A stretch of 42,913 nt of DNA from Lutibacter flavus. GTDB taxonomy: Bacteria; Bacteroidota; Bacteroidia; Flavobacteriales; Flavobacteriaceae. The translations under genes were made by a program, and so were the position numbers. Positions 17,097 to 21,171 of the stretch are shown here, piece after piece; positions within the stretch are counted from its first letter, which is position 1, and each line of letters begins with the position of its first letter. Under the pieces are notes generated by a model, which ran no database searches, was not told where the DNA came from, and saw only the letters and a list, made by a program, of their open reading frames with translations. The DNA is taken from assembly GCA_945903795.1 (NCBI GenBank), contig CAMDPE010000002.1, forward strand, positions 1 to 42,913, given 5' to 3'.

Positions 17097-18926
17097 ATGT
17101 TAGAGTTAGCAGGAATCATTGTTTTAGGAATTATTGCGCAATGGGTAGCCTGGAAATCAAAAACTCCTGCAATTTTGCCATTAATTTTAATCGGGCTATT
17201 TGTTGGACCAGTTTCTACCTTAATTTCTGCTGATGGCACAAAATGGCTGGAGCCTGTTTGGAATGGAACGGAAGGCTTATTTCCCGGTGAACGCTTATTT
17301 AATTTTGTGTCTTTGGCTATAAGCATTATACTTTTTGAAGGCGGTTTGACGTTAAAAAGAGAAGAAATTTTAAATGTGGGTCCAGCCATTCTTAAACTTA
17401 TTACATTAGGCTCAGTGGTTACTTTTTTTGGAGCAGGTTTGGCTGTTCATTTTATTTTTAATTTGAGCTGGGAAATTTCATTTTTGTTTTCCGCTTTAAT
17501 TATTGTAACAGGACCAACAGTTATTGCACCAATTTTGCGAAATATTCCCTTGAAAAAAGATGTTTCTACCGTATTAAAATGGGAAGGTATTTTAATTGAT
17601 CCAATTGGGGCGTTGGTTGCTGTATTAATTTTTGAATTTATTAGAGTTGGAGAAGGGTATAATTATACCACTGAAGCTTTAATTGAGTTTGGGAAAATAG
17701 TGGTTGTTGGATTTTCAATTGGTGTTGCAGCTGCTTATGCCTTATATTATTCCATCAAAAAAAAATTAATTCCGCATTATTTATTAAACGTTTCTTCTTT
17801 GGCTATGGTACTTGCCGTTTTTGTGCTGGCCGATTTGTTCGCCCATGAATCGGGTTTATTAACCGTAGTTATTATGGGTATGGTTCTTGGAAATATGAAA
17901 GTAGAAGGGTTAAAGGAAATTCTTTATTTCAAAGAATCTTTAAGTGTTTTGTTGGTTTCCATATTGTTTATATTGTTGTCAGCAAATATGAATATTGATG
18001 ATATGATGTTGCTTTACAGATGGGAAACTTTACTGTTATTTGGCATAGTGGTTTTTATTTTAAGGCCATTAGCTGTTTTTTTAAGCACATCACATTCCGG
18101 ATTAAGTTTCAATGAAAAATTATTTATAAGTTGGGTTGGCCCACGAGGTATTGTGGCTGCAGGGATTGCCTCATTATTTGGGTTGAAACTTTCTATGCAG
18201 GGAGAGCCAGATGCAGAATATATAACGCCATTGGTGTTTATGATTGTTTTGGGAACGGTTTTGTTAAATGCCACCACTGCTCGTTTGTTTGCTAAAATTA
18301 CCGGTGTATTTTTAAAATCTTCTGACGGAATTATCATCTTTGGAGCATCAAATTTTGCGCGCTTAATTGCTGGTTATCTAAAAGAAAACGAACGAAGAGT
18401 GGTTTTAATTGATAACAATGTCGAAAATATTGAAAGGGCAAAATTGTTGGGGCTGGAAGCAATTCAAGGCAATGTTTATTCAGATGAATTATTGGAAGAT
18501 GTTGAATTAAATGATATTGGATATTTACTTGCCTTAACTGGAAGTCCAGTCATTAATGAATATGCAATTAATAAATTTTCGGAAATGTTTGGAGAAAATG
18601 GTGCTTTTAGAATTGTTTCTACTGATGAAATGACAGAAGGAGCAAAAGAAGGTGACCAAATGACTAAAGCACACTTATTTACCCATAAAGATGATTATCT
18701 TAATTTGAGTGAAGTTGTGCGTGATTTTCCATTTGTGAATGAAGTGCCAATTACTTCAAAACAACAATACGATAATTTATTACTTGAAATAAATCACGAA
18801 ACACATGCAATTCCGCTATTTTTAAAAGACAATACCGATTTTATTCATATTATTTCTTCTTTACCTAAAACATTCAATATAGAAAAAGGAAATGTTTTAA
18901 TGTATGTTGGTAAAACTATTGTGTAA
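17097..18926 (+). CDS. Cation/proton antiporter with C-terminal TrkA-N (RCK) domain
   Basis: This is a 609 aa protein of the CPA1-like Na+(K+)/H+ exchanger family. About twelve membrane helices span residues 1-400. The transport core shows VTGPTVIAPILRN (about 138-150) and ILIDPIGALVAV (about 164-175), with an Asp in the usual ion-binding position. SWVGPRGIVAAGIASL appears near 345-360. A cytoplasmic nucleotide-binding domain follows (about 405-520), with a Rossmann-like start (GIIIFGASNFARLIAGYL) and VVLIDNN. This suggests gating by NAD(H) or another nucleotide. The last 80 residues are a further cytoplasmic module. The gene stands alone. Confidence 0.9.
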   Translation: MLELAGIIVLGIIAQWVAWKSKTPAILPLILIGLFVGPVSTLISADGTKWLEPVWNGTEGLFPGERLFNFVSLAISIILFEGGLTLKREEILNVGPAILKLITLGSVVTFFGAGLAVHFIFNLSWEISFLFSALIIVTGPTVIAPILRNIPLKKDVSTVLKWEGILIDPIGALVAVLIFEFIRVGEGYNYTTEALIEFGKIVVVGFSIGVAAAYALYYSIKKKLIPHYLLNVSSLAMVLAVFVLADLFAHESGLLTVVIMGMVLGNMKVEGLKEILYFKESLSVLLVSILFILLSANMNIDDMMLLYRWETLLLFGIVVFILRPLAVFLSTSHSGLSFNEKLFISWVGPRGIVAAGIASLFGLKLSMQGEPDAEYITPLVFMIVLGTVLLNATTARLFAKITGVFLKSSDGIIIFGASNFARLIAGYLKENERRVVLIDNNVENIERAKLLGLEAIQGNVYSDELLEDVELNDIGYLLALTGSPVINEYAINKFSEMFGENGAFRIVSTDEMTEGAKEGDQMTKAHLFTHKDDYLNLSEVVRDFPFVNEVPITSKQQYDNLLLEINHETHAIPLFLKDNTDFIHIISSLPKTFNIEKGNVLMYVGKTIV

Positions 18927-19025: not shown

Positions 19026-19889
19026 GTGGATTCTAGCAAGAAGAAAAAAATTATAGAGGTTGTTGTTATTTCAGATATACATTTAGGAACTTACGGTTGT
19101 CACGCCAAAGAACTTTTAAAATACTTAAAAAGCATCAATCCACAAACGATTATTTTAAATGGCGACATTATTGATATTTGGCAATTCAGCAAACGCTATT
19201 GGCCAAAATCTCATATGAAAGTCTTGAAATATTTGATGGGCTGGATTTCTGAAGGAAAAGAAATTTACTACATTACTGGTAATCACGATGAAATGTTCCG
19301 AAAATTTGTTGATTTTAAAATGGGCAAATTCTCCATAAAAAACAAAGTTGTATTAGAGTTAGATGGACAAAAAGTCTGGTTTTTTCACGGCGATGTTTTT
19401 GATATTTCCATAAAACACTCTAAATGGCTTGCAAAATTGGGCGCTATTGGTTACGATTTTCTAATTCTTATCAACAGAGCCGTTAATAATATCAGTCATT
19501 TTTTTGGAAAAGAAAAAGTTTCCTTGTCAAAAAAAATTAAGGATAGTGTTAAATCAGCCATTAAGTTTATCAATAATTTTGAAGAAACGGTCACAACAAT
19601 TGCCATAGACAACCAATTTGATTATGTGGTTTGCGGTCACATTCACCAACCAATAATTAAAGATTTTACCACCAATAATGGAAGCGTTACTTATTTGAAT
19701 TCAGGCGATTGGGTAGAGAATTTAACAGCTTTGGAATATAACAACAAGCAGTGGAGCATCTATAAATATGAAGACTTTCATTACCAAAAAGAGGAAATTG
19801 AGGATGATTTAGCGGTGGTGGATTCCATTGACCAAACGGCAAAGGAATTGTTTGGCCAATTAATGGCGGACTTTAATTTTAAGTTTTAA
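19026..19889 (+). CDS. LpxH-like metallophosphoesterase
   Basis: This is a 287 aa calcineurin-type phosphoesterase with all metal motifs: SDIHLG (about 16-21), NGDIIDIW, TGNHDE, FHGDVFD and GHIHQP. The pattern and a helical insert fit the UDP-2,3-diacylglucosamine diphosphatase group, which makes lipid X for lipid A. The start is GTG at 19026. The stop TAA overlaps the ATG of a minicistron (TAATG) in the tandem repeats that follow. The glycosyltransferase downstream suggests that both genes act on an envelope lipid. LpxH itself cannot be separated from paralogues by eye. Confidence 0.82.
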   Translation: MDSSKKKKIIEVVVISDIHLGTYGCHAKELLKYLKSINPQTIILNGDIIDIWQFSKRYWPKSHMKVLKYLMGWISEGKEIYYITGNHDEMFRKFVDFKMGKFSIKNKVVLELDGQKVWFFHGDVFDISIKHSKWLAKLGAIGYDFLILINRAVNNISHFFGKEKVSLSKKIKDSVKSAIKFINNFEETVTTIAIDNQFDYVVCGHIHQPIIKDFTTNNGSVTYLNSGDWVENLTALEYNNKQWSIYKYEDFHYQKEEIEDDLAVVDSIDQTAKELFGQLMADFNFKF

Positions 19890-20151
19890 TGAAACGAGCA
19901 TAACAAATTTTGATGAATGAAGTATTGATTAATGGCGAACAGCAGCTGTTACCTCTAAAAAATAAAATTTAATCAGATGAAACGAGCATAACAAATTTTG
20001 ATACGCAGTAGAATGATTAATGGCAAACTGCATCTGTACCAATAAAAAATAAAATATAAACAGATGAAACGAGCATAACAAATTTTGATACACAGTAGAA
20101 TGATTAATGGCGAACTGCATCTGTACCAATAAAAAATAAAAATATAAACAG
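19889..20151 (+). repeat. Three 87-88 bp tandem repeats, each carrying a start-codon region
   Basis: Units begin at 19889, 19977 and 20064 (periods 88, 87 and 88 to the next ATG). The last two are nearly identical; the first is more diverged. Each opens with the minicistron ATG AAA CGA GCA TAA (MKRA). Copies two and three also encode a 10-codon frame (MINGxLHLYQ). Copy one encodes a 19-codon frame at 19913-19972 instead. Each unit ends in an A-rich stretch and CAG, the same context that precedes the glycosyltransferase ATG at 20152. The repeat thus multiplies the translation start region of the downstream gene. There are no spacers, so it is not a CRISPR array. Confidence 0.93.
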
Positions 20152-21171
20152 ATGAAAATATTATATGCCATTCAGGGAACCGGGAACGGACATTTAAGCA
20201 GGGCAAAAGACATAATTCCGGCACTCTTAAAACGTGCTCAGGTTGATATTTTAATCAGCGGTACGCAAGCCGAAATTGTTTTGCCTTACGACGTCGATTA
20301 TGTTTATAAAGGCCTGAGTTTTTATTTTGGCAAAAACGGCGGAATTGATTTTATGAAGACATTTAAAAGAAATTCTATCGTAAGCGTCATTAAAGAAATT
20401 ATCAGCTGTCCGGTTAAAGATTACGATTTGGTGATCAATGATTTTGAGCCAATAACTGCTTGGGCCTGTTATTTTAAAGGCGTAAAATGTATTTCTTTAA
20501 GCCACCAAAGTGCTTTATATACTGATAATGTTCCAAGGCCTTCGTTTACAGATTTAATAGGTAGTTTTATGATAAAAAACTACGCAAGGTGTGCGCTTAA
20601 TTATGGTTTTCATTTTAAAAAATATAATGATAAAGTCTATACGCCAATTATAAGAAGTGATATCAGGTTGTTAAAACGAACTGTAAAAGACCATTACACC
20701 GTTTATTTACCTGCTTATTCCGATGAAAAAATCATCGAAGTGCTGTCAAAAATCAAAGGTGTTAAATGGAAGGTGTTTTCTAAAGAAGCACAAATTTATT
20801 ATCAGAAAAAGAATGTTTATGTGAAGCCGATCAACGGCAAAAAATTCGAAAAAAGTTTGGCATCGTGCAAAGGAGTTTTGTGTGGCGCAGGATTTGAAAC
20901 GCCGGCTGAAGCCATTTTTTTAAAAAAGAAATTGATGGTCATTCCCATGAAAAATCAATACGAGCAACATTTTAACGCCACAGCTTTGTCGGATTTGGGG
21001 GTTCCTGTGTTGAGATCTTTAAAAAAGAAGCACATTCCCGAAATTGAAAATTGGATTAAAAGCACAAGTCTTGTTGAACTGCAATTTCCAAACGAAACAC
21101 AGCAAATCATTGACACTATTTTATTCGATTTTATTGCCGACGAAATTAGGCTGTTATCTAAAGTTATTTAG
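20152..21171 (+). CDS. MurG/GT28-like glycosyltransferase
   Basis: This is a 339 aa GT-B-type transferase. The N-terminal domain starts MKILYAIQGTGNGHLSRA, with the glycine-rich acceptor-side loop of MurG and diacylglycerol glycosyltransferases. The C-terminal donor domain shows CGAGFETPAEAIFLKKKLMV (about 244-263) and NQYEQHFNA. No membrane helix is present, so it probably works at the inner face of the inner membrane. It lies next to the LpxH-like gene, which suggests glycolipid synthesis. The start context is identical to that of the repeated minicistrons upstream. Its 3' end overlaps the convergent gene at 21164 by 8 nt. Confidence 0.85.
   Translation: MKILYAIQGTGNGHLSRAKDIIPALLKRAQVDILISGTQAEIVLPYDVDYVYKGLSFYFGKNGGIDFMKTFKRNSIVSVIKEIISCPVKDYDLVINDFEPITAWACYFKGVKCISLSHQSALYTDNVPRPSFTDLIGSFMIKNYARCALNYGFHFKKYNDKVYTPIIRSDIRLLKRTVKDHYTVYLPAYSDEKIIEVLSKIKGVKWKVFSKEAQIYYQKKNVYVKPINGKKFEKSLASCKGVLCGAGFETPAEAIFLKKKLMVIPMKNQYEQHFNATALSDLGVPVLRSLKKKHIPEIENWIKSTSLVELQFPNETQQIIDTILFDFIADEIRLLSKVI

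Follow-up and report, generated by a model that had tools for sequence, protein, structure and literature searches.

A short repeat inserted before ATGAAA start codons in Lutibacter flavus, probably a non-autonomous mobile element of Flavobacteriaceae

One-sided target recognition, insertion without target duplication and guide-like pairing constitute the logic described for IS200/IS605 transposition (PMC8266576; PMC6006769), and these insertion sequences, together with their internally deleted derivatives, provide the first comparison for the repeat that we describe here. The repeat shares with them a short one-sided target, the lack of target duplication, an element end identical to the target motif, an internal guide complementary to the cleavage site and strand-specific folding. 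Its insertions lie 3' of a fixed short motif of one strand (TTTCAT| on the bottom strand) with no duplication, and its internal guide covaries at both junctions, the 5' covariation being weak in the Lutibacter subfamily. Unlike IS200/IS605 members, it is only about 90 nt long, its target is the start codon ATGAAA, a single central motif combines the guides for its two ends, and no tnpA/tnpB copy having its ends was found.

The REP/REPIN sequences associated with RAYT transposases are likewise short, non-coding, numerous, extragenic and candidates for mobilization in trans in genomes that carry RAYT genes. The present element, however, is not a compact GTAG-tagged palindrome, its units follow each other directly head to tail exactly at start codons, and no RAYT gene flanks it; membership in this family was rejected, as the 88–96 nt unit lacks a 20–50 nt palindrome of the GTAG type and the RAYT genes carry other palindromes. 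The HEARO and IscB–IsrB systems resemble it in that the element stands directly 5' of an NTGA motif, NTGA being the TAM of IsrB (PMC9581776), but it encodes no protein and has no long guide RNA; HEARO RNA gave no match in the region (Rfam) or in 38 Lutibacter genomes, in a search whose positive control was silent too. In general, no credible match to a known RNA family (Rfam) occurs in the region. Integron attC sites and cassette arrays offer a parallel in their tandem units and in a folded single strand that might offer the junction in duplex form with one base unpaired, but the element lacks cassette genes, attI and attC core boxes, and it is dispersed at start codons.

Two further comparisons come from repeats found in Bacteroidetes. 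TAACTGA heptamer repeats precede start codons in Beggiatoaceae and in some Bacteroidetes and Cyanobacteria (PMC4679880), and similarly to the element they are short and lie directly before start codons of unrelated genes, but they are simple 7-nt tandem units without defined ends, target or covarying structure. A Porphyromonas gingivalis MITE with a minisatellite (PMC4596501) is likewise a small, non-autonomous Bacteroidota element with tandem repeats; it is described as a MITE, that is, an inverted-repeat element, whereas the present element has neither terminal inverted repeats nor target duplication. A DDE-type MITE was discarded on the same grounds, the 5' end (ATGAAACGAGC) and the 3' end (...AAACAG) forming no terminal inverted repeats and no duplication extending beyond the shared ATGA(AA). 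By its form, the element is thus a small non-autonomous mobile repeat, which is a known kind, but none of the families against which it was tested shows start-codon targeting or a fused two-ended guide. A search of the open PMC literature found no earlier description of it.

The array at the glycosyltransferase locus

The window, that is, the whole stretch of 42,913 nucleotides of Lutibacter flavus DNA that was analyzed, contains the following features, all on the forward strand.

19026..19889, +, upstream host gene, calcineurin-like phosphoesterase (LpxH-like, under the NCBIfam cut-off)
19889..19976, +, element copy 1, 88 bp, CAGCTG-type center; its 5' ATG overlaps the stop codon of the upstream gene; closest relatives at other loci
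19943..19948, +, CAGCTG, center of copy 1, with one mismatch to its partner CAGATG at 19974–19979
19977..20063, +, element copy 2, 87 bp, CATCTG/CAGATG type, 95% to a copy at another locus (L036)
20031..20036, +, CATCTG, center of copy 2; partner CAGATG at 20061–20066, assigned by sequence and pairing rule
20064..20151, +, element copy 3, 88 bp, directly 5' of the glycosyltransferase start codon
20118..20124, +, CATCTGT, guide-like central motif of copy 3, predicted to pair with 20148–20154 from covariation over 260 units and the fold
20148..20154, +, ACAGATG, the 3' end of copy 3 plus the start codon ATG (20152–20154), partner of the central motif
20152..20157, +, target hexamer ATGAAA, at which the glycosyltransferase gene truly begins; L010, L011 and L012 have the empty site
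20152..21171, +, downstream host gene, family 1 glycosyltransferase (PF13528; MJ1255/VC2487-like, under the NCBIfam cut-off)

TRF recovered an 87-bp unit repeated 3.1 times at 19889–20157 with a score of 411, well above chance and by far the strongest tandem repeat of the window, which bears out the three 87–88 bp units that a preliminary description had placed at 19889–20151. As that description also held, the units duplicate the region of the start codon: all three have the form ATGAAACGAGCATAA...CAG and read ATG AAA CGA GCA TAA, each is closed by CAG followed by ATGAAA exactly as at the gene start at 20152, the ATG of the first overlaps the TAA of the phosphoesterase gene ending at 19889 (TAATG), and the peptide MINGxLHLYQ is encoded by units 2 and 3. 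Further upstream, an ordinary Na+/H+ exchanger gene with a TrkA-N domain (17097–18926) lies 5' of the phosphoesterase gene.

The proposal that the MKRA minicistron acts as a functional peptide or as a ribosome loader found no support in the conservation of its reading frame or peptide. Across 260 units, the frame opened by the 5' ATG spans 2–30 codons, with 4 codons in 84 units, 27 in 44, 14 in 27, 5 in 24, 22 in 20 and 2 in 8; since frame lengths vary to this extent and the minicistron of other variants reads MK*, MKRAC* or MKHP*, no peptide is conserved, and the MKRA minicistron is a by-product.

On the model drawn from the same description, local slippage multiplied the gene's own start region into minicistrons that would load ribosomes. 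The TAATG overlap is real and units 2 and 3 are 94% alike, as slippage would have it, but this origin is highly improbable: about 40 further loci carry the window unit, its peptide lacks conservation, and close relatives have zero units here. In the genome containing the window, 12 of the 26 tandem units find their nearest relative among units of other loci, so that neighbors are often not each other's closest relatives, and VNTR slippage was rejected on this basis together with the empty sites and the dispersed copies. Within the window, unit 1 and units 2/3 represent different variants, and no unit is closer to its neighbors than to some copy at another locus, so that the array arose mainly through successive insertions ahead of the ATGAAA of the element itself, with some possible help from tandem duplication. 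Tandem arrays follow from the fact that the element itself begins with ATGAAA, so that each insertion recreates the target.

Dispersal and precise insertion before start codons

The units are dispersed, inserted precisely with no additional target duplication, preferentially located at start codons, arranged head to tail and covarying in their center with both ends, and they are probably copies of a short (about 88–96 nt) non-autonomous mobile element of Flavobacteriaceae that inserts exactly before ATGAAA start codons. The genome containing the window (G000; 3.17 Mb in 306 contigs) is fragmented, 94.6% complete and 4.4% contaminated. A one-unit query produced 55 matches in it, each followed by [A/G]TGA and almost always then by a gene, and the addition of missed copies brought the total to about 60 units in about 44 arrays of 1–4 units. 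These copies differ by at least 3% and thus give no sign of recent movement within this genome. The element is present in 31 of 38 Lutibacter genomes; unit counts outside G000 are lower bounds, as only part of the candidates was scored. In several units of other Lutibacter genomes (L121, L177, L194, L138, L152 and L171), a second, palindromic insert (CCTGCCTGCCGGCAGGCAGG-like or CCCGAATTTTCGGG) lies at one and the same place, between GCGAAC and CAGCTG/CATCTG, which probably explains units of 104–114 bp.

On a broader scale, three consensus queries yielded 36, 72 and 83 of 301 sampled Flavobacteriaceae genomes with the element or a sister subfamily, their union amounting to 95 (about a third), and outside this family it was detected in four genomes of two other families. 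An exact-pattern search of eight genomes returned 51 matches versus 0 for the reversed-pattern control, and two pattern scans of IMG/VR detected no element in phages. The subfamilies have in common the 3' module CATNTGACC..TAAAAAACAATAAATATAAACAN'|ATGAAA and differ in their 5' arm (ATGAAACGAGC, ATGAAATGAGCC, ATGAAACATCCAT and others); matches to the 3' module only, for which the sequence near the match was read out of 2.5 kb upstream, were elements of ATGAAACATCC and related variants.

Comparison of occupied and empty sites revealed that insertion adds nothing beyond the unit, with no duplication except the shared ATGA(AA). At the window locus, L010, L011 and L012 (glycosyltransferase identity 86–87%) have 0 units and a bare site, ...TTTAATTTTAAATTTTA|ATG, with the same TAATG overlap. 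Exact empty sites were also observed for L227 (2 units) in L224, for L045 in L159, for L079/L124 in L175 (with an identical protein start), for L183 in L197, for L161 in L121/L122 and for L126/L141 in L267. The unit number at one site likewise differs among relatives, with 1 in L190 versus 3 in L039, 1 in L230 versus 2 in L041/L167, 3 in L178 versus 2 in L171/L152, and 1 in L120, 2 in L036 and 0 in L227. These comparisons used loci picked mostly for carrying elements and give no turnover rate. Thus, the suggestion that unit number varies holds, with 0 units at the window locus in three close relatives and differences of 1/2, 1/3 and 2/3 at other loci, and copy number is not constant among relatives.

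In G000, an ATG (once a GTG) lies directly 3' of every array, and an evident gene directly follows 38 of 41 arrays. Among the host genes, as read from translated gene starts, are phosphoglycerate kinase, CoaD, D-Ala-D-Ala ligase and PurN, and a special role at the two envelope genes, as put forward earlier, does not agree with an element that stands before about 40 unrelated genes. In 170 kb of G000, we counted ATGAAA 33 times at starts, 71 times in intergenic sequence and 224 times within genes; relative to the resulting null of 0.32 [33/(33+71)], which relies on a crude gene caller, the 38 of 41 arrays correspond to p = 4e-16. This preference may in part be due to selection against insertion elsewhere.

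The hexamers flanking the units indicate which side contributes the shared bases. The 5' end of the element is ATGAAACGAGC in 239 of 262 units regardless of what follows the ATG of the gene, and the hexamer 3' of the units is mostly ATGAAA but also ATGAAT, ATGAAG, ATGAAC, ATGAGA and GTGAAA (262 units). As only the right hexamer varies and the left ATGAAACGAGC stays constant, the left ATGAAA belongs to the element and is not a copied target, bases 4–6 of the hexamer being element-derived on the left and target-derived on the right; a target-site duplication was ruled out on the same basis. The target itself is ATGA in 97–100%, with A as the fifth base in 99% and as the sixth in 93%, and only 25% of nearby ATG starts are ATGAAA. 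The upstream flanks of the arrays resemble ordinary ATGAAA starts, being A-rich at −12 to −10, and G at −1 of the insertion point reaches 0.30 versus 0.14 at other ATGAAA starts (p = 0.0016; 143 Lutibacter sites).

Pairing of the central motif with both ends

At the 3' junction, the central CATNTG is complementary to CAN'|ATG, so that the CAT of the center faces the ATG of the gene. The variable pair N:N', formed by the fourth base of CATNTG and the last base of the element, is complementary in 251 of 260 units, exhibits all four Watson–Crick pairs and is the top column pair of the alignment (0.815 bits, the next being 0.34). In single copies of G000, rare matched pairs occur, namely CATTTG/CAAATG (L042, L065) and CATATG/CATATG (L064), which could reflect hairpin-templated correction or separate source variants.

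At the 5' junction, the sister subfamilies show pairing between the nine bases that follow ATGA in the element and the nine that precede the center; their arm/center pairs are the following.

AACATCCAT/ATGGATGTT
AACATTCAT/ATGAATGTT
AACAGCCAT/ATGGCTATT
AACGCCCAT/TAGGGCGTT
AATCAACCA/AAGTTGATT
AAT-GA-GCCA/TGGC-GA-ATT

For 43 distinct block sequences and both helices together, doubly changed cells numbered 62 versus 17.6 in shuffled and 7–13 in slid controls, the covariation score was 0.274 versus 0.10 shuffled and 0.02–0.06 slid, and 0 of 5000 arm swaps were as good as the real pairing. The rows were cut by a rule requiring the ATG, CAT-like and CAN-ATG anchors, so that information comes only from helix 1 and, in helix 2, from the variable base. 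Pairing of the 5' arm with the center is weak in the Lutibacter ATGAAACGAGC subfamily (GC plus tandem G.A), and the two-ended pairing therefore rests mainly on the sister subfamilies. Opposite A4, the pairing base T is nearly absent (1 of 260 and 0 of 52 units), which constitutes a conserved mismatch; apart from this position, the center is, judging by the alignments, the reverse complement of the joined ends, or of the unit-to-unit junction. With respect to the subterminal hairpins that TnpA binds at both ends of IS200/IS605 elements, RNAalifold predicted no compact hairpin, the conserved pairings being long-loop only, and the single-strand fold of the whole unit was no better than that of shuffled sequences (z about −0.2). 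A simple RNA fold, in turn, predicted the start codon to be paired with the center in a local hairpin of −6.2 kcal/mol (P about 1).

Covariation of this strength, next to a position that is always directly before start codons, is also what a cellular regulatory leader would exhibit, that is, a selected RNA switch controlling translation through alternative pairing of the central CAU, either with the 5' AUG or with that of the gene. The predicted start-codon pairing near 1 in the simple fold and the single copies of one genome changed on both sides (L042, L065, L064) are in line with such a switch. We nevertheless find it quite unlikely, as the host genes are unrelated, presence varies among close relatives, whose empty sites are clean, additional copies in tandem would be superfluous, and subfamilies pair different 5' sequences with their own center, a need that belongs to the ends of the element only.

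The complementarity of the center to the joined ends, broken by a single conserved unpaired position, together with the head-to-tail arrangement of the units, further recalls the integron integrase and its use of attC, in that a recombinase would act on a single strand in folded form, with the center:junction duplex serving as a pseudo-double-stranded site. This alternative is unlikely too, given that the junction motif lacks attC core boxes and that the targets are many start codons and not one attI.

A candidate enzyme and the proposed effect on the host gene

Under our preferred reading of the units as copies of a mobile element, the element would move as a folded single strand, its ends being recognized through the folding of one strand. 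An excised circle or a tandem junction would pair with the center, which is the reverse complement of the 3' end, the ATG and the 5' arm; a recombinase supplied in trans would recognize the paired center and junction, and strand exchange would take place at or inside the ATG common to element and target.

It is possible, without being probable, that this enzyme is a Y1 (HUH) transposase of the IS200/IS605/RAYT kind, for which the bottom-strand cleavage sites, at the target and at the element's end, would both be TTTCAT^ and the central motif would be the guide. The one-sided target, the lack of duplication, the same short motif at the target and the element end, and the pairing between cleavage site and internal guide all agree with such an enzyme. 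Moreover, a Y1 gene is present in 13 of 14 element-rich Lutibacter genomes versus 7 of 24 others (p = 1.7e-4), the association being weaker across Flavobacteriaceae (odds ratio 2.6, p = 2e-4), and the single Y1 gene of G000 (L108) belongs to the Bacteroidetes non-IS type. On the other hand, shared ancestry of the genomes inflates this association, and 43 of the 95 element-bearing genomes have no Y1 match, including complete ones and Lutibacter G042 with its well-preserved copies. The Lutibacter Y1 genes are flanked by other palindromes and not by the element, and a count of gene orientations, of little information and with the origin assumed at position 1, gave no head-on excess of the kind expected from lagging-strand insertion (21 head-on and 29 co-directional). 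With evidence this mixed, the Y1 transposases are a lead.

Among the Y1 loci fetched, no transposase was flanked by the element, and no autonomous copy combining tnpA with the same ends was detected among the Y1 loci or the G000 5' ends. The lone ATGAAACGAGC 5' ends of G000 considered as autonomous copies turned out to be ordinary copies (C4, C7, C84 and C306) or chance occurrences in coding sequence (C26 and C61).

As to the host gene, insertion would leave the element's ATG behind the native leader and place a new A-rich initiation region of the Bacteroidota type before the gene, so that the native leader would now drive the element's own ATG and the gene would rely on the A-rich end of the element. 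The supply of an ATG to the native leader together with a new initiation region is proposed to account for tolerance of the element before essential-type genes. The element brings this A-rich initiation region, yet its center can pair with the start codon in the simple fold, and this pairing may lower translation of the gene.

Taken further, and tentatively, at a confidence somewhat short of even, the element could represent an undescribed minimal class of mobile elements that targets start codons as such, in which one central motif guides both junctions, the start codon acts as the core of recombination, and each unit brings a substitute initiation region plus a hairpin covering the start codon, bacteria of a whole family thus sharing a module for translation initiation that is mobile and stackable. 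Whereas insertions commonly disrupt genes or alter promoters, this element sits exactly before the start codons of unrelated genes. Its presence in about a third of the sampled Flavobacteriaceae genomes alters how 5' regions and start codons are to be read there, as the upstream ATGAAACGAGC ATGs could be taken for starts by mistake. It also constitutes a natural test of start choice by Bacteroidota ribosomes, and its two-ended guide with a conserved mismatch beside the start-codon core makes the mechanism accessible to in vitro tests with oligonucleotides.

Some observations concern the Y1 genes themselves. Several distinct RAYT-like Y1 families occur in Lutibacter (L232–L251, L115), some with their own palindromes, and at L246 the palindrome CAAAGTCTCCGACTTTG precedes a RAYT-like Y1 gene. 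At L285 (G001:C10) a RAYT gene with a GTG start has the element immediately 5' of that codon, and the L246 paralogue starts with ATG and has no element. Subclass 1.2 of Quentin et al. is said to be generally devoid of typical terminal structures. The Y1 proteins of L103 and L106–L109 match this Bacteroidetes/Cyanobacteria subclass (PDHIH, WQ, YIxNQExHH), and several of the genes (L103, L106, L109) lie between palindromes, for instance GTGCCTTTAGGTAC.
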